From Candidatus Hydrogenedentota bacterium (lineage in GTDB: Bacteria > Hydrogenedentota > Hydrogenedentia > Hydrogenedentales > JAJRTN01): a DNA stretch of 40,815 nt. Positions 23,909 to 38,923 of this stretch are shown here, piece after piece; within the stretch, counting starts at the first letter, position 1; each line of letters begins with the position of its first letter. The stretch is from assembly GCA_024278275.1 (NCBI GenBank), contig JAJRTN010000099.1, positions 1 to 40,815 of the forward strand, read 5' to 3'. Both the position numbers and the translations under genes were made by a program. The notes beneath the pieces are model-generated. The model ran no database searches, was not told the origin of the DNA, and saw nothing but the letters and a program-made list of their open reading frames with translations.

Positions 23909-26900
23909 CTACGGGAGCGCGCCCGCTCGGACCGTGCCGGAGGGGGCTTCCAGCCGCATGGGCTTGGTGATGCGAAGGGCTTCCGCCGTGTTGCCGGATT
24001 TCACGTAAACGGTCCCCGCCGGGGTGACGAAATCCGTTCCTTCCGCGAGGGTGTTGAAAGGACTGGTTTCGCTGCCTTCCTCCGGTCCCCCGTGGGCGAA
24101 ATCGACCCACAGGGGGTCCGTGAAGCCCGCGGCAGGATCCACGCCGTTGCCGGTGAGGATGACACTGGCGGGGGAGTCGTCCGGGTCGTCCGACGCGACC
24201 GACAGCGCGGCAGTCTTGTTGCCTTCGGCGGCAGGGTTGAACTGGAGCGTCACCGTGCGCGATGCGCCAACGGCGAGTGCCGTCTCGCCGGTGTCACCCG
24301 CGATGGCAAAATCCGCCGCGTTTGCGCCGGTGATGTGGACACTTGCAATGTTGAGCGTGCTTTCGCCCGTGTTGCCGATGGAGACGGATTGGGAAGCCGT
24401 CGGCCCGGCGGTAACGCTCTGGTATCCGAAATCGAGACTTGTGGGGGAGAGGACGATATTCGGCGCGCCTTCGGCCACGCCCCAGAGATAGATGCCCACC
24501 GAGGGATCCGCCGGGTCGTTGGATTCGACGGTCACGTAAGCGACCTTGTCGCCCGGTGTGAGCGGGTTGAAGGCCACTTGTACCGTTCGTGTCGTGCCGG
24601 CGGCGAGGGTGGTTTCGCCCGTATCGCCGGTAATTGCATAGTCCACGGCCGCGTCGCCCGTGAGCCCCACGCTCGTGATGCGCAAGTCGTCGGGACCCGC
24701 GTTGCCGATGGTGAAGGCCACGGAAGCCGTCGGGCCGGCGCCCGCCACGCGATTCGGGAACAGGTAATAGGTGGGTGAAACATTGATATCGTTATCCGCG
24801 GCGAAGGTGCCGCACACACCAACATTGTCGATCATGAGCAGGAAATCGTCGTAGGAATTGTTTCGGAAGGCGATATGGACCGCCTGGTTGGCATAGCCCG
24901 CCGCGGCGAGGTCCACCTCCCGCGTGGTCCACACCGCGTTTTCGGACGGCGTGGTGAAGAGCGGCGCGTTCGCCAGGAATGCGGACATGCCCGGCCCCGC
25001 GGCGGAAATGCGCACCTCGTAGCCGTCGGAAAATGTCGGGTCCAGCGCGGCGGCGTCCCACTGGAGGGTGCTGCCCGCGTCGAGGGTGATAGCCGGGGTG
25101 ATGAGCCAGTCATCCGCCGCGCCCACCGGGTTGTACCAGGAGGTACTGACCGCCTCCGTATCCGTGTCGCTTTCGAGCCCCGTCATGGCAATCCAGGCCG
25201 CCGTAAAGTCCTGAAGCACCGGGGTGCGCCCGTCGTTGTCGATGAGGGTCCAGGTGGGCGGGATGCCGTTCGAGAAATCCTCGTGGAGCAGCACCTTCTC
25301 GCAAGCCCCGTCGCCGGAAGCCGTGGAGATGCGCAGACTGTAGGCGCCAACGGCGCTGCCGAAGCCGGCGAGTCGAACGAGGTAGGGCGTGCCCGCCGTA
25401 AGATCCAGGATTACCTCGGATTGGACACTGCATGTGTCGTCATTGCAGCCGAGGCTGGTCAGGTTGCCGCAGGTGCCGCTGAAGACCGACAGGGTGGTGT
25501 CGAAGTCACTGCCGCAGGCCGAGATGATATGGCTCTCCGTGGTGATGGGGGTGAAGCGGAACCACACGTCACGGTAGTCCTCAAGGTCCATATTGTTGCA
25601 CGTCACGTGCCCCACGCCCGTGGCGGTGACGGTGGATCCCGTGTAATACCGGTCCGCCACGATGTCCATGGCGTTCTCGCAGTCATTGTTGTCCGGCGGC
25701 GGCTGGCAGGAAGTTTCCGGCGTGATGGCCACGGCCTTGCAGGCGTTCGCGATGTTGGCCCGTTGCGCCGCGGAGAGGCCCAGATTGATGGCGGCCTGGG
25801 TGAGGGCGTTGTAGAGGTCCACGAAATCCGCGGCCTGGGTGAGCAGGTTCACCTGGCATTCATAAAACAGGTCCGCCACCAGGGAGATGCCCATGCCGCT
25901 GATGGTGTAGCCGCGGAAGGAGGCGCCATCGGTAAGCAGGTAGCACAGCTTATTGGGTACGCCGGAGTTGATGTGAACCCCGCCGTTGTCGGAGCCCACC
26001 TCCCACCAGTAAGGGCTGCACGTGCTGTCCGGCTGTCCGCTGTTGACGGGGTTTTTCATGTCGCGAATGGCGCCGTTGGGCAAGTCTTCCCCCATGAGCC
26101 AGCGGACCCCGGCCGCGTCGTTCCCCGCGCCGTTGGTGAGATCGATGAACTCTCCCCAGATATCGGAGAAAGACTCATTCATCGCCCCGGAAAGGCCGAA
26201 GTAAATAAGGCTGGACGTGTGTTGCGTCACGCCATGGGTCAACTCATGGCCCACCACGTCGTCCGCCCCGGCGAAGCCTTCGCCGAAATACATGCGCGCC
26301 CCGTTCCAAAAGGCGTTGGCCATGGGACACGGCGAGGGCGATCCGGGGCAAAAGCGTACCGTGCCACTGATCACCATGCCGTTGCCGTCGATGCTGTCCC
26401 GGCCGTGCTCGTTCCAATAGAAGTCATAGGTGTCGCCGAAAAAGTCATAGGCGTCATCGGCATCGGGGACCGCCACGCCGTTGGTGCGCGTATTGTTGGG
26501 GTCCGAGGTCGCCGGTTCGCCTTCCGTGCGCACCAGATTGCCGGGGTCCGACGTGCTGTTCGCCGCGTCATGCACCTCCCGGGCGAGCGCCTCCTGGATG
26601 AGCGAGAAGTGAAGAAAAACTTCCCCCGTCCGGGCATCCACGAACACGCGCTCCTTCACCCAGGGCGCATCGACGCCCGCCCGGACCATGGACCACGCCA
26701 GCCGGTTCACGCCGCCGAGCCCCAGCACCTCGGGCGCGAAGATAAGCAACTCCGGGCCTTCCACGACCACCGTCGCCACCCCCGGCGCGCCCCGCACCAC
26801 CAGTTGCTCCGCCCGGGACACGGCTTCGGCCGCGTCCACGGCGGGTGTGAGGGGAATTTTGCCCGTGTCCAGGCCCGCGGTATTGCGCATGACATCGCTC

Positions 26901-27367
26901 ACGGCGCTCTCGATGCCCCGCTTCCGGTGTACCTGGACGATGGCCTCCGCGCCGAAAACGGGCAAGCCGCCGTAGGTCTGGCGCATGCGCACCGACGTGC
27001 GGAGTCCCGTAACCGTGGCGCGCGTTGTTTCAAGAGCCGTCGCGGGGCTGTCGAGGCCGAAGGCCGTGGCACGCTCCATCATGAACCGCCGGGCGGCGGC
27101 CTCGGGTGTCGTCCCCGGGGGCGACAAACTTCCTGACGGCGGCGCGCCCAGGAAACGCAGACTGCCGTCTTCGGCATGGGTGGTGCGCGCCGGTTCCGCG
27201 CCCGACCCAAGATGAACGCCTTCGGTCAATCGGCGGGCGGCCTTGGCGCGCGGCGAGGAGGGACCGTCTTCGTTGAACACCGGCCCCGCGAAAGCGGATG
27301 CGGAAAGAGCCGTCACTGCAAGGAAAAACACCGGGCACAAACGTCTTCGGTATGCGGCTACCTGCAT
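23909..27367 (-). CDS. Secreted M4 (thermolysin-type) metallopeptidase with C-terminal sandwich domains
   Basis: A 1152-aa exported zinc protease. Order: signal peptide (1 to about 28), FTP/PepSY-like propeptide (about 60-220, RQTYGGLPVFGAEAIVQV), then the M4 catalytic domain with HELTH at 374-378, the third zinc ligand in NESFSD (E398) and the HINSGVPN segment holding the catalytic histidine. A PPC-like beta domain follows (CENAMDIVADRYYTG), then a cleaved-adhesin-like jelly roll (LLHEDFSNGIPPTWTLIDNDG) and two choice-of-anchor-D / HYDIN-type Ig repeats (TFSIGN-type motifs FTIGNAGPDDLRI and VSIGNTGESTLNI). It ends with a short segment that has a VYVKSGNTAEALRI pattern. AAGGGG precedes the ATG. 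It should degrade protein outside the cell; no sorting tail is seen. Confidence 0.93.
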   Translation of the reverse strand: MQVAAYRRRLCPVFFLAVTALSASAFAGPVFNEDGPSSPRAKAARRLTEGVHLGSGAEPARTTHAEDGSLRFLGAPPSGSLSPPGTTPEAAARRFMMERATAFGLDSPATALETTRATVTGLRTSVRMRQTYGGLPVFGAEAIVQVHRKRGIESAVSDVMRNTAGLDTGKIPLTPAVDAAEAVSRAEQLVVRGAPGVATVVVEGPELLIFAPEVLGLGGVNRLAWSMVRAGVDAPWVKERVFVDARTGEVFLHFSLIQEALAREVHDAANSTSDPGNLVRTEGEPATSDPNNTRTNGVAVPDADDAYDFFGDTYDFYWNEHGRDSIDGNGMVISGTVRFCPGSPSPCPMANAFWNGARMYFGEGFAGADDVVGHELTHGVTQHTSSLIYFGLSGAMNESFSDIWGEFIDLTNGAGNDAAGVRWLMGEDLPNGAIRDMKNPVNSGQPDSTCSPYWWEVGSDNGGVHINSGVPNKLCYLLTDGASFRGYTISGMGISLVADLFYECQVNLLTQAADFVDLYNALTQAAINLGLSAAQRANIANACKAVAITPETSCQPPPDNNDCENAMDIVADRYYTGSTVTATGVGHVTCNNMDLEDYRDVWFRFTPITTESHIISACGSDFDTTLSVFSGTCGNLTSLGCNDDTCSVQSEVILDLTAGTPYLVRLAGFGSAVGAYSLRISTASGDGACEKVLLHEDFSNGIPPTWTLIDNDGRTPVLQDFTAAWIAMTGLESDTDTEAVSTSWYNPVGAADDWLITPAITLDAGSTLQWDAAALDPTFSDGYEVRISAAGPGMSAFLANAPLFTTPSENAVWTTREVDLAAAGYANQAVHIAFRNNSYDDFLLMIDNVGVCGTFAADNDINVSPTYYLFPNRVAGAGPTASVAFTIGNAGPDDLRITSVGLTGDAAVDYAITGDTGETTLAAGTTRTVQVAFNPLTPGDKVAYVTVESNDPADPSVGIYLWGVAEGAPNIVLSPTSLDFGYQSVTAGPTASQSVSIGNTGESTLNIASVHITGANAADFAIAGDTGETALAVGASRTVTLQFNPAAEGNKTAALSVASDDPDDSPASVILTGNGVDPAAGFTDPLWVDFAHGGPEEGSETSPFNTLAEGTDFVTPAGTVYVKSGNTAEALRITKPMRLEAPSGTVRAGALP

Positions 27368-27406
27368 AACGCACCCCTTAAGTGGCAAATGTCACAACAC
27401 CATGAT

Positions 27407-27735: not shown

Positions 27736-27898
27736 ACCCCCATTTCAGGGAGGCCATCCTTTGACCCGCCGGGAGCAGGAAGTTGAAACGGGTGGAGCCG
27801 TCTCGGGCCGGGCGCACAGGTCCATCTACGTGTTTTTCCCCTACGACTTTTTTGCAAATGCCGTGTTTTTCACCGATGTGTATTTTGGAATTCCATCC

Positions 27899-27904
27899 TA
27901 TAAT
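27899..27904 (+). promoter_or_regulatory. Consensus TATAAT directly ahead of a small ORF
   Basis: A perfect TATAAT ends 6 bp before the ATG at 27911. Transcription would be expected to start at or within a base or so of that ATG, giving a leaderless mRNA. No good -35 is seen 16-18 bp upstream. It may also supply the downstream cytochrome genes. Confidence 0.45.
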
Positions 27905-27910
27905 TTCAAC

Positions 27911-28054
27911 ATGCGTACCGTGGAATATAACCGAGAATCGCGAAAACATGCCCGAAGCATGGTGGACTTGGGCGATGTGCTGTCGCTGGCGGCTTTCTGC
28001 CTCCTCGCCACGTTGTTCGCGATACTTATCCTTGGGAATGTTGTGCCCGCTTAG
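27911..28054 (+). CDS. Small single-span membrane protein (47 aa)
   Basis: This short frame encodes a charged N-terminus (MRTVEYNRESRKHARS) and one clear TM helix (VLSLAAFCLLATLFAILIL) near the C-terminus, giving an inside-basic topology. There is no Shine-Dalgarno site, but the consensus TATAAT just upstream would make a leaderless message. The frame is open for longer upstream, yet the upstream part reads through a repeat and does not look coding. It precedes the cytochrome genes by 115 bp on the same strand. Function unknown; it could be a small accessory or leader peptide. Confidence 0.5.
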   Translation: MRTVEYNRESRKHARSMVDLGDVLSLAAFCLLATLFAILILGNVVPA

Positions 28055-28075
28055 GGATGGCTGGGAGCCAACCAG

Positions 28076-28127
28076 CTTGCGGGATACGTGACGGGTTCCC
28101 GGGTGCCCGTGATCCTGTCCGGGCAAG
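28076..28127 (+). promoter_or_regulatory. Nested hairpin in the leader of the cytochrome genes
   Basis: Three stems nest: CTTGC with GCAAG (28076-28080 / 28123-28127), GGAT with ATCC (28082-28085 / 28112-28115) and ACGGG with CCCGT (28091-28095 / 28106-28110). The structure lies 20 bp after the 47-aa ORF and 40 bp ahead of the cytochrome start. It could be an attenuator or RNA stabiliser. I do not recognise a riboswitch; cyclic-di-GMP (GEMM) consensus bases are absent. Confidence 0.3.
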
Positions 28128-28168
28128 AGGCTGAACACGCCGGCGCGGGTTAAAAAAGGGGTTGTACG

Positions 28169-28831
28169 ATGAACAAGGGTGTGATGGCTGGGGTGGCCGC
28201 CGTGGCCGTGGTGTTTTTCGCTTCATCCGGCAAGGTGACGGGGGAGATTCGCGAGTCCCATCACGACTTCAGTACGGCGGGCTGGAGCGGTGGCGAGATT
28301 TGCATTGTATGTCATACCCCGCATGGTGCGAATACCACGGTGGCGGACGCGCCTTTATGGAATCACGAAGTCACAAATGCGGCATATACAGTCTATACTA
28401 GCCTGTCCCTTGACGCGCTCCCGAGCCAACCGAGCGGGGATTCCAAGTTGTGCCTGTCGTGTCACGACGGGACGGTCGCCGTGGACAGTTTCGGGGGAAA
28501 TACGGGAAGCTGGACGGCGGGTTTTGGGAACCTGGGGACCGACCTGACGCGCCACCACCCCATTTCGTTTGTTTATGATGACGCCCTGGCACAAACGGAC
28601 GGCGAGTTATACGCTCCATCAAGCCAGTCTTCCGGGCTTGGTAGCACCATCGACGCGGACCTGCTTCGGGGGGGGCGGATGGAATGTACCTCTTGCCATG
28701 ACGTTCACATTTCCCGGAACAGCGCGGGTTGCGCCGGTTGCCACTTCGTGGGCGGCGTGACAACCAAAACACTTTCTCTTTGGAAATCCAACGACGGCAG
28801 TGCGCTCTGCCTCACGTGTCACAACAAGTAA
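28169..28831 (+). CDS. Exported five-haem c-type cytochrome
   Basis: A 220-aa protein with a Sec signal peptide (1 to about 25) and five CXXCH haem sites: CIVCH, CLSCH, CTSCH, CAGCH and CLTCH, the last at the very C-terminus (CLTCHNK). Seven other histidines (SHHD, TPHG, WNHE, RHHP, DVHI) give enough distal ligands for bis-His haems. The pattern CHTPHGANT, then APLWNHEVT, SKLCLSCHDGTVAVDSFGG, HHPISFVYDD and CTSCHDVH is that of small multihaem cytochromes found in metal-reducing and anaerobic bacteria. AAGGGG lies 8 nt or so before the ATG. It is the first of three exported proteins on this strand and likely carries electrons across or outside the envelope. Confidence 0.92.
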   Translation: MNKGVMAGVAAVAVVFFASSGKVTGEIRESHHDFSTAGWSGGEICIVCHTPHGANTTVADAPLWNHEVTNAAYTVYTSLSLDALPSQPSGDSKLCLSCHDGTVAVDSFGGNTGSWTAGFGNLGTDLTRHHPISFVYDDALAQTDGELYAPSSQSSGLGSTIDADLLRGGRMECTSCHDVHISRNSAGCAGCHFVGGVTTKTLSLWKSNDGSALCLTCHNK

Positions 28832-28858
28832 GCCCGATCTGGCCGGAAAAGAGGCGAA

Positions 28859-29986
28859 ATGCTGTCATCCATGCATCATCAAGCCGTGGTTTCATTGGCC
28901 TTTCTCGCACTTGCGTTTTGCGGTTTCTCCCCGGCCGCGGAACCATTGTCCATGCCCTCCTTCGTAAGAAGTCAACCCCTTGTCTCCGGACTGGGCGCGC
29001 CAACCGCCGTCGCGTCGGATGTACGGGGCCAGGTGTACGTGGTCGAGTCCGGGAAAAACAGGCTTTCCGTCTTTTTCGAGGGCCGGGTGGTGGGCGAAAT
29101 CAGCCAATTGCATCGCCCTATCAGCGTCGCGGTTGACAGGGAACAGCAGATTTACGTGGGCAACGCGGACACCGGCAGCGTTGACGTATACGGCGAAGAC
29201 TTGCGGTTCATTCGCAAGCTGGGCGCGGGTGACGGCGCGTTTCTCCATCCCGCGGGCATCGCCGTTCGCGAGAACGGAACGGTATACGTGGCAGACAGCA
29301 AGAAAAACGAGGTCCACGTGTTTGACGCGGAGGGCGCATTCCAGTTTGCCATAGGATCTCCGGGCAGTAATGCCGGGGAGTTCACGTTCCCCGTTTCGCT
29401 GGCTTTGGACGAATCCGCAGACCGCCTCTTCGTGACCGACCTTCAACTGGTTCCCACCTTTGAACACGGATTGAGCGGGGGGGAAGGGGTGCAGCAGGGG
29501 GCGCGAATCCAGGTGTTTGGTCTTGACGGGACCTTTCAAAGTGCTTTCGCGCCCCATGGCCGTGGCGAAGGACGCCTTGTCCGCCCGCTCGGTGTTGCCG
29601 TGGACCCGGCTGGCCGGCTGTACGTGAGCGACGCCTATCAGAACGTGGTTCAGGTGTATTCCAGCGCGGGGGCAAGCCTGGGCGCGCTTTATGATTTGGC
29701 GTCCCCCTTTCAAACGCCTTTGGGCATCGCCTTCGGCAAGGCCGGCAACACCCTGTTCGTGGTGTCGCAAAACGCCGGATTGGTGGAGACCTTCGATCTG
29801 TTCTTCACCGGCGAGGGTGAGGGTGAAGGCGAAGTTGGGGAAGAAACAGGTAACACCCTGGGCTGCATGGCGTCGCAAGACCGGGGTTCTTTTGTCGGCG
29901 CCATGGCGGATTTGACGCTGCTGATCATTGCCTTGGCCGTATTGGGTTGGAAGGCGAAGCCCGGAAGAACTCCATCCGCCTCATGA
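28859..29986 (+). CDS. NHL-repeat beta-propeller with Gly-Glu linker and C-terminal Cys-TM tail
   Basis: A 375-aa exported protein between two cytochrome genes. After the signal peptide (to about residue 27) come about six NHL-type blades with the usual PxGIAVxxxGxVYVADxxxxxVxVF pattern, for example HPAGIAVRENGTVYVADSKKN and RPLGVAVDPAGRLYVSDAYQN. The tail from about 322 has an acidic GEGEGEGE linker, a TLGC cysteine, a 15-20-residue hydrophobic helix (LTLLIIALAVLGW) and a short basic end (KAKPGR). This is the layout of C-terminal sorting signals. GAGG precedes the ATG. The propeller probably binds a partner, maybe one of the cytochromes, and the tail anchors it in the membrane or directs it to the surface. 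Confidence 0.85.
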   Translation: MLSSMHHQAVVSLAFLALAFCGFSPAAEPLSMPSFVRSQPLVSGLGAPTAVASDVRGQVYVVESGKNRLSVFFEGRVVGEISQLHRPISVAVDREQQIYVGNADTGSVDVYGEDLRFIRKLGAGDGAFLHPAGIAVRENGTVYVADSKKNEVHVFDAEGAFQFAIGSPGSNAGEFTFPVSLALDESADRLFVTDLQLVPTFEHGLSGGEGVQQGARIQVFGLDGTFQSAFAPHGRGEGRLVRPLGVAVDPAGRLYVSDAYQNVVQVYSSAGASLGALYDLASPFQTPLGIAFGKAGNTLFVVSQNAGLVETFDLFFTGEGEGEGEVGEETGNTLGCMASQDRGSFVGAMADLTLLIIALAVLGWKAKPGRTPSAS

Positions 29987-30015
29987 GACTTCGGGGATCC
30001 CGGAGTCGGGTGGAA

Positions 30016-32100
30016 ATGATTATGAGGCATGTGCATTCGATGAAAAGACGAGCGTTGACAATAGCCGCGAGCTTGGCGATGGTCTTGGGGTGTGCCTGTG
30101 TTTTCGCGCAAGATTACCCGCACACGGAAGCCAACAACGGTATTACCTGCGATACCTGTCATTTTATTTTTCATAGCGAAGAAAACCTGTTGGTGGAATG
30201 GATCACACAGGACGCCCCCCAGGACATAGACGACACGCCCACGAACCGGCTTTGCCGCAGTTGTCACAACGATTTGGTTGCCCCGCGGATGGAAACCCAT
30301 TCCAGCCTCACGACGAGCACGGCCTACGGAGACTGGTCCGTGGAATGCAGCACCTGCCATGATCCGCATTTGCAGCAGCAGATCTGGGCCGCTGACAGTT
30401 CAGCGTTTATCTATGAGGGGATCTCGACAAGTATCAGTGCCACCGCGTTGAGCCAGGCGGGGGCCGGGTGGACGCCGGACGCCTTTGCGGGCATGGTTCT
30501 GGTGCCGAATCTGCTCAATCGCGAGTACAGCTACAAGATTACAGCCAACACCACCGATACCTTGTCGGTACAGGGACCCATCAACCTGGACGCCGCGTCG
30601 CCGGGGGACGCTTTTGCCATCGTTTACGGCAAGCTTATTCGCGACTTGGTGCCCCTTCCCGGGGGCGGGAGCGGGGTGGTGAAGTTTTATGCGCCAACGG
30701 GGCTGAACTCCTTCGCCGACGGCGTCGGCGCGTTCGACGGCATTTGTGAAGCATGCCACACGCAAACCTATCATTTCCGGCGCAATGGAAGCGGTCCGGG
30801 CCAGAATCATGGGGGTAAAGCGGGTGAAAACTGCACCACGTGCCACGATCACTTGAACGGTTTCGCGCCGTCCGGCACCTGTGTTGACTGTCACGCGGTC
30901 CCGAAGGGTTCCCGGCGCGCCGTGGTGGGCGAATTCCCCTCGAATGATGTCCATGGGCACTACGGCGCCGAACTGGACCCCGAGGATTGCCTGGTCTGTC
31001 ACAGTGTGGCCACCCACATGAACGGGTACGTGGAACTGGTTGACCCGGACACGGGAAGTCTCTACACCTTTCAGCAGCCGACCGATTTAACGGCCAGTCC
31101 CGATCTCTCCGATTTCTGTTCCGCATGTCATGATGCCGATGGCGCCAGCCGGCTTCCCACCCCCTTTGATCCCTTTGGCAATGGCAACGCGGCGCCCAAC
31201 GTGGCCGACCGCTTCAAGGGAACGCTTCAATGGTCCGAATGGTACGGTGACTTTTGTTTCGGCGAGGAAGGGACGCAGCGCGCGGTCAACAGTCATCATG
31301 ATATCGGGGATGGGGACCAGGCGTTCAGTGGCGCCAAGCTGGAATGCCTGAATTGTCACGGCGCGCACACCGCTTCTGCGTCGCAGCCGTTGGCCGATCC
31401 CTACGACACGGTCAAGGCCTGGACGGGCACGGACAACGGGTTCTGCCTGTCGTGCCATAATGGCGGCAACGGCCCCGCCGACCCGGGGTTCCCCCCCACC
31501 GTCACCGGCCCCACCGTGGCCCTGCGCGGTCTGGACACCTGCGATTACACCGTGGCCCCCTGGCATGTGGATTACACCTGGACCAATTCCGCGCACGGGG
31601 GGGATTCCAAACGGGGCTGGGCGGGTTACTCGGGCGCCCCCGGCGCGGAGGTGGCCTGCATGTCGTGCCATGATCCTCATGGCTCCTACACGCCCGCCAA
31701 TCCCGCGGGCAACCCCTACATGATCCGGGACTTCGTGGACGGCACGCCGTATGTCGATGACGGCGTTCGCCCCGGCGCGCAATGGAACGGGCCGCCGTGG
31801 GAAACGTTCGGAACCCAAAAGGCAGTGGTGATCCCCATCACGGGCGTGGAAGTGGGCATGGACAATCTTTGCGTGACGTGCCATGCGGACTGGGTGCAGG
31901 CCTACAGCTGGCACACGAGCTGCAACGGTTGCCTGACCTGTCATGGCCACGGCCAAACCTGGGGCAACTATGATTGGGGTCCCGGAAATGACGACGGGGC
32001 GCCTTGCCCGCCGGTGAAGAGCCAGCCCAAGATAAATCTTGGGTTGGAGACGCCCCCGCTTCATTCCTACTTTCTCCCCGACGACGAGGACGGAAAGTAA
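30016..32100 (+). CDS. Exported thirteen-haem c-type cytochrome
   Basis: About 694 aa (686 if translation starts at the ATG at 30040), with a signal peptide ending near VFAQDY. Thirteen CXXCH motifs are visible in order: CDTCH, CRSCH, CSTCH, CEACH, CTTCH, CVDCH, CLVCH, CSACH, CLNCH, CLSCH, CMSCH, CVTCH and CLTCH. The last is part of CNGCLTCH, with an extra CxxC directly ahead. Between haems 3 and 4 a beta-rich stretch of about 120 residues without cysteine interrupts the haem domain, ending VKFYAPTGLNSFADG, a pattern seen in large exported cytochromes. A start ATG is hard to fix: none has a strong binding site. With its two upstream neighbours it suggests an envelope or extracellular electron path. 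No porin gene is adjacent. Confidence 0.92.
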   Translation: MIMRHVHSMKRRALTIAASLAMVLGCACVFAQDYPHTEANNGITCDTCHFIFHSEENLLVEWITQDAPQDIDDTPTNRLCRSCHNDLVAPRMETHSSLTTSTAYGDWSVECSTCHDPHLQQQIWAADSSAFIYEGISTSISATALSQAGAGWTPDAFAGMVLVPNLLNREYSYKITANTTDTLSVQGPINLDAASPGDAFAIVYGKLIRDLVPLPGGGSGVVKFYAPTGLNSFADGVGAFDGICEACHTQTYHFRRNGSGPGQNHGGKAGENCTTCHDHLNGFAPSGTCVDCHAVPKGSRRAVVGEFPSNDVHGHYGAELDPEDCLVCHSVATHMNGYVELVDPDTGSLYTFQQPTDLTASPDLSDFCSACHDADGASRLPTPFDPFGNGNAAPNVADRFKGTLQWSEWYGDFCFGEEGTQRAVNSHHDIGDGDQAFSGAKLECLNCHGAHTASASQPLADPYDTVKAWTGTDNGFCLSCHNGGNGPADPGFPPTVTGPTVALRGLDTCDYTVAPWHVDYTWTNSAHGGDSKRGWAGYSGAPGAEVACMSCHDPHGSYTPANPAGNPYMIRDFVDGTPYVDDGVRPGAQWNGPPWETFGTQKAVVIPITGVEVGMDNLCVTCHADWVQAYSWHTSCNGCLTCHGHGQTWGNYDWGPGNDDGAPCPPVKSQPKINLGLETPPLHSYFLPDDEDGK

Positions 32101-32229
32101 GAGCGCGTTCTTCCACCGATGGAGATGGGTTCCGGCGTGGTCGTTTCAGGACCGGGCCATGGTGTTCCCCGGCGGGGATCCTGTTGGGCACGAGCGACCG
32201 GGGGGGCTTCCGAAGGAGCCGCCGCTAAT

Positions 32230-32277
32230 GTAGAAGAGGCTTCCAGCCTCTTCAAAGCGGCTGGAAGCCGCTTCTAC
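32230..32277. repeat. 48-nt near-perfect inverted repeat (clover-type), terminator candidate
   Basis: GTAGAAG and CTTCTAC flank two internal hairpins: AGAGGCT / AGCCTCT and GCGGCT / AGCCGC. The whole 48 nt is also almost its own reverse complement, so it can form one long or two short hairpins. It lies between the convergent 13-haem cytochrome and response regulator genes and may end both transcripts. The rest of 32101-32347 holds the REP-like piece below and no gene. Confidence 0.6.
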
Positions 32278-32280
32278 GTT

Positions 32281-32302
32281 ACCGTCATCCCCGCGTTCGC
32301 GG
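32281..32302 (-). repeat. REP-like repeat, partial copy 3
   Basis: A CCGTCATCCCCGCG core with a CCCGCG / CGCGGG hairpin matches the family seen at 14290-14320 and 27654-27686, with one interior change and truncation. It directly follows the 48-nt inverted repeat. Confidence 0.5.
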
Positions 32303-32347
32303 GGGTACAACTACAGCGGCCGTTATCGTGGCGTGGAAGGCGCGGGT

Positions 32348-33001
32348 TTAGTCCTTTCCCAACAGTCCGTTGTCGAGGGCGAAGCGGACCAACTCGGCCC
32401 GGTTTTTCATGTCCAGCTTCGTCATGATGTTGGTACGATGGGTTTCCACCGTTCGGACGGAAACATTCAGTTTCTCGGCGATCTCGACGTTGGTGTAACC
32501 GTGGGCGACATGGGTGCAAATGTCCCGTTCCCGGGGGGTAAGGATCTCCAGGCGGGTAGGTTTCTGCTTCATGGGCTTTCCCACGTAGGGTGAGATCACC
32601 AACTTGGCCAGGGCGGGATCGACAAAGTTATCGCCCCGGTACGCCGCGTGAATCGCCTGCACAAGCTCGGTGCTGGTCGATTTCTTGAGCACGTAGCCCC
32701 GCGCGCCGATACGAAAGAACTCCTGCAGATAGTACTCATCCTGGTGCATGGACAAGACGATGATGGCAAGATTGGGCTTCAGTTCAAGAATCGCCTCGGC
32801 GGCCTTCACGCTGGGAATGCCCGGCATGCTGATGTCGAGAATCAGCACATCGAAATCCAGGCGACCGGCGAGTTCGATGGCCTTCTCGCCCCTGTCGGCT
32901 TCGCCGACCACTTCGATGTCCTCTTCTTTCTCCATGAGTGAACGCAGACCACTCCTGAACACGGCATGATCGTCGGTGATCACGATTCGAATCATTGTCA
33001 T
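32348..33001 (-). CDS. NarL/FixJ-type response regulator
   Basis: A 217-aa two-domain regulator. The receiver domain has the acidic pair D10-D11 (ITDDH), the phospho-acceptor D56 (LILDISMPG), a switch serine region (VLSMHQ) and the lysine in VLKKS. The C-terminal LuxR-type HTH follows LTPRERDICTHVAHGYTNVEIAEKL, then VSVRTVETHRTNIMTKL. The start at 33001 overlaps the kinase stop as ATGA; the ATG at 32995 has better spacing from GGGAG and is also possible. The pair should control genes in response to the sensor's redox or haem input. The convergent cytochrome cluster is the obvious candidate target, which is inference. Confidence 0.93.
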   Translation of the reverse strand: MTMIRIVITDDHAVFRSGLRSLMEKEEDIEVVGEADRGEKAIELAGRLDFDVLILDISMPGIPSVKAAEAILELKPNLAIIVLSMHQDEYYLQEFFRIGARGYVLKKSTSTELVQAIHAAYRGDNFVDPALAKLVISPYVGKPMKQKPTRLEILTPRERDICTHVAHGYTNVEIAEKLNVSVRTVETHRTNIMTKLDMKNRAELVRFALDNGLLGKD

Positions 33002-34509
33002 TCTCCCTCTTCCACCAGGGGAACCATGATGCGAACGATGGTTCCCGTGCCGATCTGCGACTCGATGTCGAGCTGGCCGCCGATGAGTAGCGCGCGCTCT
33101 TCCATCCCCATTAAACCCAGCGACGAGCCGTCGGTTTTCGACAAGCTGGACGTGTCGAACCCCCGGCCATTATCCTCGATAACCAACACGACGGCTCCGT
33201 CACGTTCCACTTCCGTTATACTGACTTCGCTGGCCTGGGCATGACGCAACACGTTGGTAACCGCCTCCTGGGCCACGCGGTAAAGGGTCACCTCTATTCT
33301 TCCGGGCAAACGCCTTCCCTCGGGCACGGTGGATTGAAAAGCGACATGCACACCGGTGCGTTGTGATATTTCCTGGGCATAACGGTCCAGCGCGGATTCG
33401 AGTCCATAATCATCCAAAATAGAAGGCCTCAAATCCCAGGCAAGCTGTCGAACCTCTTCGATCAACTCCCGAAGCTCCTCAACCACCGCGGTACAGTCAT
33501 CCCCCGCGCATCCACAGCGTTTTCGCATGGTTTGAAAGGACATGAGGGTTTTCAAGAGAGACTGACCCAATTGATCGTGCAATTCGCGCGAGATATTCTT
33601 GCGTTCGTCTTCCTGGGCCTGGACGATCCTGTCCAGGAGGTTTTTTTGCGCGGCGCTCTTTTGCCGCACTTCCTCACGGTACTCCTGAACCGTTTCGGCC
33701 ATGTCATTGAACGTGGAGGCAAGGGCCCCGATTTCATCCATGGAAAAAACTTCCGCGCGGGCGTCAAAGTCACCATTTCGCGTCCGATTTGTCGCCTTGA
33801 GCAGATCCCGGAGAGGATGAATCAGGACGTAGGACAGACATGCCGACAGAAACAACGCCACGATACAGGAAACGGCGAAACCACGTACCAGGGCGCTGTT
33901 GATCGAGGCGGCTTCCCGCGTGATCATCTCATCGGAAACGCCCAGCAGAACGGAGCCCGCGCCGGATTCGCCGATAGGCGCCTGTGCCTCGATGATGGCC
34001 CCCCCGTCCCGTGCGTAAAACTTGAAATGACCATTGGCCAAAGATGAACTCCTGGCAAGCTTGGGCAAATCCCTCGCAACCGTGAGGGTATCGGGAAGGG
34101 TGTGGCAGGACTCGCAAATACGGGGCCGTATCCTTGTCGCCACCGCGGATGTTTCCTTCGAGAAGGCAAACTGATGCGCCACCAGCTTCCCCTGGGCGTC
34201 CAGTACCACGACATAACGTGCGTCCGGCAGAATCCGGAAGAGGTCATCCAGGTTTTTTTGGATAGCCGGTATATCGCCGTCTCTCATGGGCGGCTCCAGT
34301 TGGGCCGCCAGGGAGTGGACACTGAAATGGATCGCCCGAATGTGATGCTCGTAATAGGTTCCACCCCGCGTCCCCCATTGCACTTCCAAGTACGTGACGG
34401 TACAAAACACGACGGTTACCAACAGGACGATTCCAAAAACCTTCACCGAAACGGGCACGGAAAGGATATGCCAGAACAAGCGATGTCCCCGATGTTCAGA
34501 ATCCACCAT
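32998..34509 (-). CDS. NarX/DegS-like sensor kinase with a periplasmic haem c motif
   Basis: A 503-aa membrane sensor kinase. TM1 is about 14-42, a periplasmic domain about 43-205, TM2 about 207-230, HAMP about 231-283, HisKA_3 with the phospho-acceptor H311 in SRELHDQLGQS, and a HATPase_c domain with NGRGFD and GLMGMEERALLIGG. The periplasmic part contains CESCH at 132-136, a c-type haem attachment motif, in RIRPRICESCHTLPD. A cluster C332-x-C334-x4-C339 lies just after the dimerisation helices. GAGGGA precedes the ATG by 5 nt. The protein is translationally coupled to the regulator. The CXXCH makes a covalently bound haem the likely sensory group for redox state or a small gas. Confidence 0.93.
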   Translation of the reverse strand: MVDSEHRGHRLFWHILSVPVSVKVFGIVLLVTVVFCTVTYLEVQWGTRGGTYYEHHIRAIHFSVHSLAAQLEPPMRDGDIPAIQKNLDDLFRILPDARYVVVLDAQGKLVAHQFAFSKETSAVATRIRPRICESCHTLPDTLTVARDLPKLARSSSLANGHFKFYARDGGAIIEAQAPIGESGAGSVLLGVSDEMITREAASINSALVRGFAVSCIVALFLSACLSYVLIHPLRDLLKATNRTRNGDFDARAEVFSMDEIGALASTFNDMAETVQEYREEVRQKSAAQKNLLDRIVQAQEDERKNISRELHDQLGQSLLKTLMSFQTMRKRCGCAGDDCTAVVEELRELIEEVRQLAWDLRPSILDDYGLESALDRYAQEISQRTGVHVAFQSTVPEGRRLPGRIEVTLYRVAQEAVTNVLRHAQASEVSITEVERDGAVVLVIEDNGRGFDTSSLSKTDGSSLGLMGMEERALLIGGQLDIESQIGTGTIVRIMVPLVEEGE

Positions 34510-36512: not shown

Positions 36513-38923
36513 ATGCCCAACCTCTTGCTGGAGAGTGTCAGGACGCTTGTTCTGCTCGGCCTTTTTCTTTACCTTTGGAGCGCGGGAAAAGGGCGGTCCC
36601 GAATCGAACAAGAAGGGTGGCGGCTCATCCTGGCCGGCTTCTTCCTTCTTTTTGCCGGGAGCCTGGTGGGGCTCACCGGCTATATGGACGCACTGAATCG
36701 TTTCACGCTCATCCCGAATGTGGGAAATCTGGTGTTTTTGGGGGAGAGGCTCCTTTTTCTGGGCGGGGTCGCGGTCTTGGCGTTCGGGGTGCTTCACCGG
36801 ATGCAGCCGAATACGAAAACATGCAAGACGGCATGGAGCGTGGGGAGTCCGCAAGATCATAAGCACGCCGCGGCCGATTATGAACTGCTCATGCTGGCCA
36901 TCGAGCAGGCGAAGGAAACCATTGTCATCACCGACGCTGACGGCGGGATCCAGTACGCGAATCCCGCATTTGAGACCACCACGGGCTACACCCGTGAAGA
37001 GGCTGTCGGTCAGAATCCGCGCATTCTCAAAAGTGGAAAGCACGATGCCGCTTTCTATAAAGCCATGTGGGATACGCTCGCCGGGGGTGAAACATGGAGC
37101 GGTGAGATAATCAACCGGAAAAGGACGGTACGCTGTATACGGAAGAGGCCACGATTTCGCCCGTCCGCAATTCCGCGGGGGAAACGGTGAGCTACGTTGC
37201 CGTCAAGCACGATATCACCGAGCGAAGGCGGGTGGAGGAAGAATTCCGCGGAATAAACGAGGTCCTGGAGCAACAAACCGCCTTGGCCAATTCGATGGCC
37301 GCCGCCGCGGAAATGGCCAGCGCGGCCAAGAGCGAGTTTTTGGCCAACATGAGCCATGAGATACGCACTCCCATGAACGGGGTGATCGGCATGATTGGCT
37401 TGCTCTTGGATACGGATCTCAGCGATGAGCAGCGAAGCTATGCCGGAACGGTAAAGAGCTGTGCCGATTCGCTCCTGACGCTGATCAACGATATCCTGGA
37501 CTTCTCCAAAATCGAGGCGGGCAAGTTGGAGATGGAGACGATTGATTTTGATCTGTATTCCCTGATGGATGATTTTTCGGAGATGATGGCCATCAGGGCT
37601 CAACAAAAGGGGCTTGAATTTCTCTGCGCCGCCGCGCCTGAGATCCCCCCTCTCCTCCAGGGCGATCCGGGTCGTCTTCGGCAGGTGTTGACCAACCTGA
37701 CGGGCAATGCCATCAAGTTCACCGACAAGGGCGAGGTGGCGGTGCGCGCCCGCCTGGAATCGGAGACGGAGACGGCGGTAGTACTGCGCTTCTCAGTTCG
37801 GGACACCGGCATCGGCATACCCGCCAACCGTCAGGCACACCTCTTTCAGCAGTTTACCCAAGTGGACGCCTCCACCACGCGCAAGTATGGCGGCACGGGC
37901 CTGGGCCTGGCCATTTCCAAGCAATTGGCCGAGGCCATGGGGGGTGAGATCGGTATCCACTCGGAAGAGGGGAAGGGCTCGGAGTTTTGGTTTACGGCCC
38001 GTTTTCTCAAACAGCCCTGCGGCTCCAAGAATCTCGAACCGCAGACCGATTTGCGTGGTGTTCGCATCCTGGTGGTGGACGATAACGCGACGAATCGTGA
38101 AATCCTCCTGACACGCCTGGGTGCTTGGGAAATGCGGCCGGAAGAGGCCGCCGAGGGTGAAGATGCGCTTAATATGTTGCGCGAGGCGGCAGCCGGGGGA
38201 GACGCTTTCCCAATGGCCATTCTCGATATGCAGATGCCGGGGATGAGCGGGGAAGAACTGGGCAAAGCCATCAAGGCGGACCCCGGACTTGCTGATACGC
38301 GCCTTGTGATGATGACCGCCCTTGGGCGGCGGGGAGATACCAAGCGCCTCAAAGAGATCGGTTTTGCCGCGTATCTCACCAAACCCCTGCGCCAATCTGA
38401 CCTGTATGACACCTTGGCCGCAGTGCTGAACGGGGAATCGAATACGGCTGAACGTTCCTTGATCACGCGCCACTCGATCCGCGAGGCACGGCGCGGCAAA
38501 GCCCGTATTTTGCTCGCCGAGGACAACCCGGTCAACCGAAAGGTCGCCTTGGCCGTCCTCAGAAAGCTGGGTTTGGCGGTCGACGCCGCGGTAAACGGAG
38601 CCGAGGCCGTCAAAGCGCTGGAAACACTGTCCTACGACTTGGTGCTGATGGACTGCCAGATGCCTGAAATGGACGGCTACGAGGCAACGGCCGCGATTCG
38701 CAATCCCCAATCCAAAGTCCGCAACCACGACATCCCGATTGTCGCCATGACCGCCCACGCCATGCAGGGCGATCACCAGAAATGCCTGGATGCGGGCATG
38801 AACGACTACCTTTCCAAACCCGTTGACCCCGATGCTTTGGTGGAGATGCTTGAAAAATGGTTACCTCGGTGGAAAGACGAAGGTTCATCAAAGGAAATGG
38901 CGGGGCATGGCTCCACGGGTTGA
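36513..38923 (+). CDS. Hybrid histidine kinase (TM-PAS-HisKA-HATPase-REC-REC); frameshifted
   Basis: The first frame (36513 to about 37122) encodes three hydrophobic segments (about 5-22, 36-55 and 78-100) and a PAS domain ([25 protein letters not shown]). It loses sense after EIINRK. The -1 frame restores the usual PAS/PAC end ([15 protein letters not shown], then VKHDITERR) and continues through HisKA ([19 protein letters not shown]), HATPase_c ([28 protein letters not shown]) and two receivers with DMQMPG and DCQMPE. One base is missing near the A4 run at 37119-37122. Corrected, the protein is 803 aa. GGAGGAGG precedes the ATG by 7 nt. No HPt domain is present, so phosphate must pass to another protein. 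It could serve the neighbouring PilZ or cytochrome genes. Confidence 0.88.

Follow-up and report, generated by a model that had tools for sequence, protein, structure and literature searches.

The question raised by this locus is whether a short row of cytochrome and propeller genes in an uncultured bacterium builds a path for electrons at the cell surface, and whether the signalling genes that face the row control it. The locus lies in a stretch of 40,815 nucleotides (the window; GenBank JAJRTN010000099.1, here contig C62) within the 5.35-Mb genome of a Candidatus Hydrogenedentota bacterium (GCA_024278275.1). Its forward strand carries the genes for a secreted five-haem cytochrome, an NHL propeller and a secreted 13-haem cytochrome, and convergent to them is a pair of genes encoding a sensor histidine kinase and a response regulator. 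Taken together, these genes probably form a module for extracellular electron transfer that is built on a nanowire cytochrome of the OmcE type and placed under a two-component system with a c-type haem. The original prediction had described the same row of three genes and a convergent NarX/NarL-type pair with CXXCH in its sensor, and our open reading frame (ORF) calls, motif counts, coordinates and Pfam domains (NHL; Cytochrome_C7/Paired_CXXCH; Response_reg with GerE; HAMP with HisKA_3 and HATPase_c) agree with it.

A five-haem relative of OmcE and its operon

The five-haem cytochrome (28169..28831, + strand; 220 amino acids, five CXXCH motifs) was present as originally called, but its OmcE-type identity had gone unrecognised. 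Judged by its full-length match to 7tfs_A, which is OmcE (PMC12954529), with an E-value of 4e-15 from the single sequence, and to 9yuq_N (1e-17), it is almost certainly a relative of this Geobacter filament cytochrome. A profile built from a 33-row family alignment reached 3e-31 for 7tfs and 4e-29 for 9yuq and picked up OmcS weakly. In the same alignment, residues H32, H52, H130 and H180 and four CXXCH motifs in OmcE order are invariant or nearly so, and in the four-haem forms these histidines provide one distal ligand per haem. Because OmcE has exactly four haems and the window protein has five CXXCH motifs, the latter belongs to a five-haem sister clade of OmcE and is not OmcE itself.

Aligned with the four-haem paralogue from the same genome, the protein shows a single change of plan, an insert of about 17 residues (28724..28783, +) that two alignments show to be absent from four-haem OmcE forms. 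The inserted motif, CAGCH (codons 28730-28744), sits 15 residues past the third CXXCH. A second mark of the five-haem proteins is an extra histidine, His31 (28259..28261, +; SHHDF), which directly adjoins the invariant N-terminal histidine and is a candidate distal ligand of the fifth haem. Among 114 OmcE-like proteins, the HHD motif is found in every five-haem row but one truncated ORF (26 of 27) and in a single four-haem row out of 84; H31 is the most likely ligand of the fifth haem. The five-haem rows form a single clade (support 100/94) and thus represent a conserved package rather than repeated convergence. As named in the records of the metagenome-assembled genomes (MAGs), the clade spans Hydrogenedentota, Bacteroidota, Chlorobiota, Ignavibacteriota, Calditrichota, Deferribacterota and Thermodesulfobacteriota.

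Some OmcE-like proteins depart from this pattern. The four-haem protein L045:9176-9829 has kept HHD and lost the inserted CXXCH, and is the lone exception to the pairing of extra histidine and fifth haem. Three others (L054:2599-3282, L056:10667-11371 and L077:1609-2367) have five CXXCH motifs with the fifth elsewhere and no extra histidine, so the OmcE fold has gained a haem more than once.

Whether the five-haem protein itself polymerises is a separate matter. The four-haem form is also present in all five Hydrogenedentota that have five-haem OmcE (the window's own genome and four relatives) and in at least 8 of 9 other five-haem genomes tested, where matches running to the end of the query were counted as four-haem. 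Since the two forms nearly always occur together and the five-haem gene most often closes the series of OmcE-like genes in its cluster, the five-haem form appears to be an accessory and not a replacement. The same facts would suit a non-polymerising adaptor, soluble or at the surface, that passes electrons between a four-haem OmcE filament and the 13-haem protein as a cap or terminal connector, and this would leave the rest of our scheme unchanged. However, homology to OmcE extends over the full length and all four distal histidines are kept, including the N-terminal one, as a polymerising subunit requires, and each of two MAGs, L037 and L043, holds three tandem five-haem genes, which speaks against an adaptor role. 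We consider such an adaptor rather unlikely and lean towards filament formation. That the fifth haem is lateral and makes contacts is a possibility to which we give somewhat less than even weight.

The three forward genes form one operon. The NHL gene (28859..29986, +) starts 27 nucleotides downstream of the five-haem gene and encodes a haem-free propeller of six-blade type (375 amino acids; Pfam NHL, 2e-21). The open frame of the 13-haem gene extends over 29947-32100 (+) and holds thirteen CXXCH motifs; since 29947 falls within the NHL gene, the real start is probably the ATG at 30022 or 30040 (gene 30022..32100, +). The product is a candidate outermost contact protein. Control stretches from this phylum, 476 kb in total and starting at contig ends, hold no ORF with three or more CXXCH motifs, so the density in the window is far beyond chance. 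The propeller ends in GEGEGEGE, a hydrophobic transmembrane (TM) stretch and a basic end. This is the tail that had been read from the sequence as sorting-like; no known sorting profile matches it, and it is a candidate surface anchor.

Conservation of the gene order had been named beforehand as a test, and the order is kept in relatives. On the Bacteroidales contig L040, the five-haem gene is directly followed by an NHL propeller and then by a 17-haem protein, which shares 62% identity over 469 residues with the C-terminal half of the window 13-haem protein, and L042 keeps the order of five-haem, NHL and large multihaem genes as far as the contig end. The full order is thus found in Bacteroidota, with partial versions elsewhere. 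In the Hydrogenedentota genome G033, the gene after five-haem OmcE is a single ORF in which dockerin-like repeats and 11 haem motifs are fused to an NHL propeller; the junction contains a segment resembling a signal peptide, which makes a sequence error possible. Two Desulfobulbia contigs hold other parts of the trio. In L047, an 868-amino-acid NHL protein, whose best match is the window NHL (35% over 322 amino acids), precedes five-haem OmcE, and L046 carries five-haem OmcE, a kinase, a regulator and a 1747-amino-acid 19-haem protein, the start of which is 43% identical over 316 amino acids to the N-terminal half of the window 13-haem protein. In G054, an orthologue of the window NHL (45%) ends in the same kind of tail. 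Surface-type extensions vary by lineage: the L040 propeller has a Por_Secre_tail/CHU_C match (a type IX sorting-like tail) below the cut-off, L046 and L047 have repeat domains, and Hydrogenedentota have GEGEGE or TM tails. An OmcE-type cytochrome beside a propeller whose relatives bear surface-sorting extensions supports the surface electron path proposed earlier.

The facing kinase and the shared promoter site

The regulator (32348..33001, − strand) is of NarL/FixJ type, with Response_reg and GerE domains, and its relatives at 62-67% identity always adjoin members of the kinase family. Its gene overlaps by 4 nucleotides with that of the kinase (32998..34509, −), which, by Pfam and a 20-member alignment, consists of a TM segment, a Cache-like sensor with a haem motif, a second TM segment, HAMP, HisKA_3 and HATPase_c. 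The haem c motif, CESCH at residues 132-136 (34102..34116, −), lies within a block of about 24 residues. Fourteen Hydrogenedentota kinases, including that of the window, align over their length at 40-45% identity and all have CXXCH at this position; non-haem paralogues in the 20-member alignment lack the entire block. The window's own genome holds a second pair of this kinase family, of the non-haem kind. Family assignment beyond this point is loose. PF11845 (sCache_heme) gave no match in the window kinase at E-values up to 1 and none among the 20 family members at up to 0.01, a match to sCache_3_2 (0.0012) was below the cut-off, which leaves the Cache assignment weak, and PDB sequences gave chance matches only for the sensor domain. 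The pair is also far from the NCBIfam equivalogs (NarX, 103 of 578 bits; NarL, 139 of 250 bits).

The sensor had been labelled as haem-sensing, for which haem-carrying should be substituted: it probably carries haem c and reads a redox state or a gas such as nitric oxide (NO), not haem itself. Genes for proteins with at least three haems lie within 7 kb at 9 of the 14 haem-kinase loci, giving 16 genes in 160 kb versus 0 in the 476 kb of control (p 3e-10 by bases and 4e-7 by loci, with related genomes not independent). These genes are of several kinds: an MtrC/OmcA family member in G002 (462 bits), Hmc-like genes in G015, G055 and G049 (the last assigned by gene order), a c554-like gene with CcsB/ResB in G016, and the OmcE module in the window. 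The idea that the sensor shares its cofactor class with its possible targets thereby gains ground, as the kinase is tied to multihaem genes across the phylum. Two narrower ideas were rejected. The neighbours are not NrfHA nitrite reductases, being of Hmc, MtrC and c554 types, and the family is not specific to OmcE, as most members occur in OmcE-less genomes beside other multihaem genes. Outside the phylum, CXXCH was found in 18 of 31 kinases at OmcE loci, 0.6-2.2 kb from the OmcE-like gene; these c-haem kinases are of NtrB type, and in the pairs that were read the regulator was of NtrC type. Of 21 HisKA kinases drawn from three genomes as a baseline, one had the motif and was itself an OmcE neighbour.

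Redox state as the signal fits these neighbours, and NO fits the signalling-type sCache_heme domains tested so far, which bind NO (PMC12889525). It is possible on this ground that the sensor detects NO or another gas for detoxification or respiration switching, rather than the redox state of a conduit. The window kinase family, however, has no PF11845 match, and among the neighbours profiled or read there is no NO- or nitrite-handling enzyme above its family cut-off, only electron-transfer cytochromes, and we regard a dedicated gas sensor as rather unlikely.

The original prediction placed the electron path without an adjacent porin. No outer-membrane barrel gene is present in the window, and to that extent the statement stood; at the level of the genome it probably did not. 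A cluster on contig C197 encodes a 13-haem cytochrome, a thioredoxin-like/TPR protein, four-haem OmcE, an NHL protein, a five-haem cytochrome of another family, a haem-free protein of about 660 amino acids, a 7-haem cytochrome, a second NHL protein and an 11-haem protein that opens with an OmcE-like domain. The haem-free protein is secreted, ends in RREF, is conserved in the cluster and is a candidate porin. Because this cluster holds a candidate porin and shares a promoter site with the window operon, the path is probably not porin-free genome-wide, and the porin absent from the window is probably encoded on C197. All four of the other Hydrogenedentota with OmcE have a conserved cluster of the C197 type, and such clusters recur in other phyla with their genes in a different order. 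Proteins of 560-660 amino acids with 10-11 haems and an OmcE-like domain in the first 200 or so residues (L026:5728-7491 and relatives) occur in many phyla and are natural candidates for a basal or capping role in OmcE-type filaments.

The shared site, CCGTGTTTTTCACCGATGT (27861..27879, +), a candidate site for the regulator, is a dyad CCGTG-TTTTT-CACcG about 290 nucleotides before the five-haem gene. In its gapped form, CCGTGTTTTNNNNNGATGT, it has exactly three matches in the 5.35-Mb genome, one before the window operon and two before operons of the C197 cluster, whose upstream regions have ATTTCCGTGTTTTA in common. A weaker copy, TACGTGTTTTTCCCCTACG (27825..27852, +), stands 33 nucleotides before the main site and scores 14.3 bits with the site matrix, against a best score of 13.5 in the 476 kb of control. 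Spacing to TATAAT (27899..27904, +), a candidate -10 box, places the dyad centre (27868) near -43, and a position around -43 is usual for an activator. The site adjoins the stretch 27870-28168, for which footprinting of the regulator had been proposed. At the promoters, only one single NarL heptamer (TACYYMT) was found and no pair.

The site recurs elsewhere in the phylum. All three OmcE-type promoters first examined in G047 have it, and these, with the three sites of the window's own genome, served to train the matrix; a fourth, untrained G047 promoter scored 30.7 bits. Among the other held-out matrix sites, those of G049, G055 and G015 stand between the regulator and an Hmc-type operon, those of G010 and G002 precede the haem kinase, and one in G047 precedes an NHL gene; the sites in G015 and G002 are weak and score below the best control. 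Scanning the phylum with CCGTGTTTTTCACKGATGY and two mismatches gave 27 matches versus 8 control matches. The 14 haem-kinase genomes account for 17 matches and 1 control match, the remaining 54 genomes for 10 and 7 (p 8e-5; held-out, 0.002). Seven of the 23 held-out matches lie within 1.5 kb of a multihaem gene; for example, the single perfect one is in G002, directly before a six-haem gene, and one in G054 lies between a regulator of the window family and a four-haem gene. At L250 (G054:C227), a truncated contig-end kinase of the family and its regulator are followed by the dyad site and then by the four-haem cytochrome gene; being truncated, this kinase had not come up in the search that defined the family. 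A literature search, with the key OmcE and archaeal nanowire papers outside its reach, found no description of a regulon with this site or of the five-haem OmcE clade.

From this distribution, it is quite probable that the adjacent pair regulates the window operon. The pair might instead control something else, its linkage being chance or old and the shared site belonging to another regulator; many haem kinases occur in OmcE-less genomes, 5 of 14 haem-kinase loci have no multihaem gene within 7 kb, and the genome holds a second, non-haem pair of the family. We hold this to be improbable, as the multihaem genes associated with haem kinases are of several kinds unrelated to one another, enrichment of the site is confined to haem-kinase genomes, and the site lies between regulator gene and cytochrome operon in G049, G055, G054 and, weakly, G015, and before the kinase in G010.

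Proposed mechanism and its weight

In the mechanism that we propose, electrons would arrive through the conduit of cytochromes and candidate porin encoded on C197. The five-haem protein would polymerise as OmcE does, or cap or branch the four-haem OmcE filament encoded there, and its fifth haem, on the inserted loop, would form a side contact that lets electrons out of, or into, the wire along its course. The NHL propeller would serve as surface anchor or scaffold and the 13-haem protein as the outermost contact cytochrome. A change in the haem c of the kinase's extracytoplasmic Cache-like domain, in redox state or by a ligand such as NO, would alter phosphorylation of the NarL-type regulator, and the regulator would then bind the dyad CCGTG-N5-CACGG near -43 and activate the window operon together with the C197 operons. 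More tentatively, and short of an even chance, the whole may be a tappable OmcE-type wire with one lateral haem per subunit, switched on with its entire conduit by a redox-reading haem c kinase, in a phylum-wide, self-monitoring electron-export regulon, with c-haem kinases of NtrB type filling this role in Bacteroidota and Calditrichota.

Several points weigh against the proposal of a regulated nanowire module. Whether OmcE-type filaments act as conduits at all is disputed (PMC11077965). Two AlphaFold2 models, one of the five-haem protein from 33 aligned rows (pLDDT 53) and one of the kinase sensor from 2 rows (pLDDT 38), are unusable for geometry, and a Foldseek search with the first gave no match. 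The five-haem gene is solitary in G026 and G054, the site is absent at the OmcE modules of both, and none was found in G033, where the kinase beside the OmcE module is a non-haem paralogue and the haem kinase stands elsewhere without cytochromes. The site was noticed by comparing promoters, so that its pattern is post hoc and its three exact matches partly so, and it is linked to the regulator by co-occurrence. Finally, the candidate porin matches no known porin family in PDB, Pfam or NCBIfam. That the genes encode ordinary periplasmic multihaem cytochromes and a propeller with no electron export, the CXXCH of the sensor being incidental, is very improbable: a propeller/multihaem operon of syntrophic sulphate reducers has been read as periplasmic (PMC5539420), but OmcE homology and surface-sorting extensions speak against such a reading here, and the sensor motif is kept in 14 of 14 members and missing as a block from paralogues.

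Other features of the window lie around this module. Upstream of the operon, on the other strand, is an M4 (thermolysin-type) protease with a propeptide and HYDIN/anchor-type repeats (23909-27388, −). Between the convergent genes stands a palindromic element, GTAGAAG...GCGGCTGGAAGCCGCTTCTAC (32235-32300, core 32257-32277), followed by a second short palindrome, CCCCGCGTTCGCGGGG; the 21-mer core of the former occurs 34 times genome-wide, among other places right outside the C197 cluster, and is a dispersed repeat, perhaps with a terminator-like role. A PAS gene (36513-37190) overlaps by 4 nucleotides with a hybrid kinase gene (37187-38923) that has two receiver domains and opens with the apparent end of a PAS domain, and the two are probably a single hybrid kinase (36513-38923) split by a frameshift, real or an assembly error.

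To our knowledge, the regulation of cytochrome nanowires is poorly known outside Geobacter. The locus offers a compact, testable case. In its five-haem variant of a structurally known filament subunit, H31 and the inserted CXXCH are the predicted ligand pair, and two nanowire loci on different contigs are tied together by a predicted circuit of sensor, regulator and site. If this holds, electron-export genes of uncultured Hydrogenedentota could be located with the help of the site and the haem kinase, and the repeated co-occurrence of OmcE clusters and c-haem kinases across phyla would suggest a general means by which cells gauge the load on their own conduits.

Comparison with known systems

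OmcE of Geobacter sulfurreducens (7TFS) is the closest known counterpart of the five-haem protein, with full-length homology, four CXXCH motifs in the same order, four distal histidines, secretion, and a neighbourhood of NHL proteins and other multihaem cytochromes. The window protein differs by its fifth CXXCH on the insert, its extra His31 and the genes that share its operon, for a candidate surface propeller and a 13-haem protein. Neighbourhoods of OmcE and NHL as such are already known from the OmcE-NHL-MtoA-type locus of Geoalkalibacter ferrihydriticus, which holds an OmcE homologue, two NHL proteins and more multihaem cytochromes and corresponds to the C197-type cluster; the five-haem form and the haem kinase are not reported there (PMC12016550). 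The likeness to OmcZ of Geobacter (PMC9473688) is functional and hypothetical only, consisting of one haem per subunit off the main chain, and OmcZ is unrelated in sequence and has eight haems. The pentahaem cytochromes of cable bacteria likewise have five haems and a proposed relation to nanowires, but they belong to a family related to ExtKL and AvECN, are described without an NHL/OmcE context and fall outside the five-haem clade (PMC11976967).

The signalling pair resembles NarX/NarL in joining a HAMP-HisKA_3-HATPase kinase with a GerE-type regulator as a gene pair, and differs in its haem-carrying sensor, in scores far below the NCBIfam cut-offs and in a promoter that lacks a NarL heptamer pair. 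With the sCache_heme (DUF3365/Tll0287) sensors such as GSU0582 and GSU0935 (PMC12889525, PMC3460858), the window kinase shares an extracytoplasmic Cache/PAS-like sensor with CXXCH in a short insert. Unlike those sensors, the window kinase and its relatives do not match PF11845, have the insert present or absent within one family, and adjoin multihaem clusters. The presence and absence of the CXXCH block in the kinase family nevertheless resembles the insertion history proposed for the sCache_heme sensors (PMC12889525).

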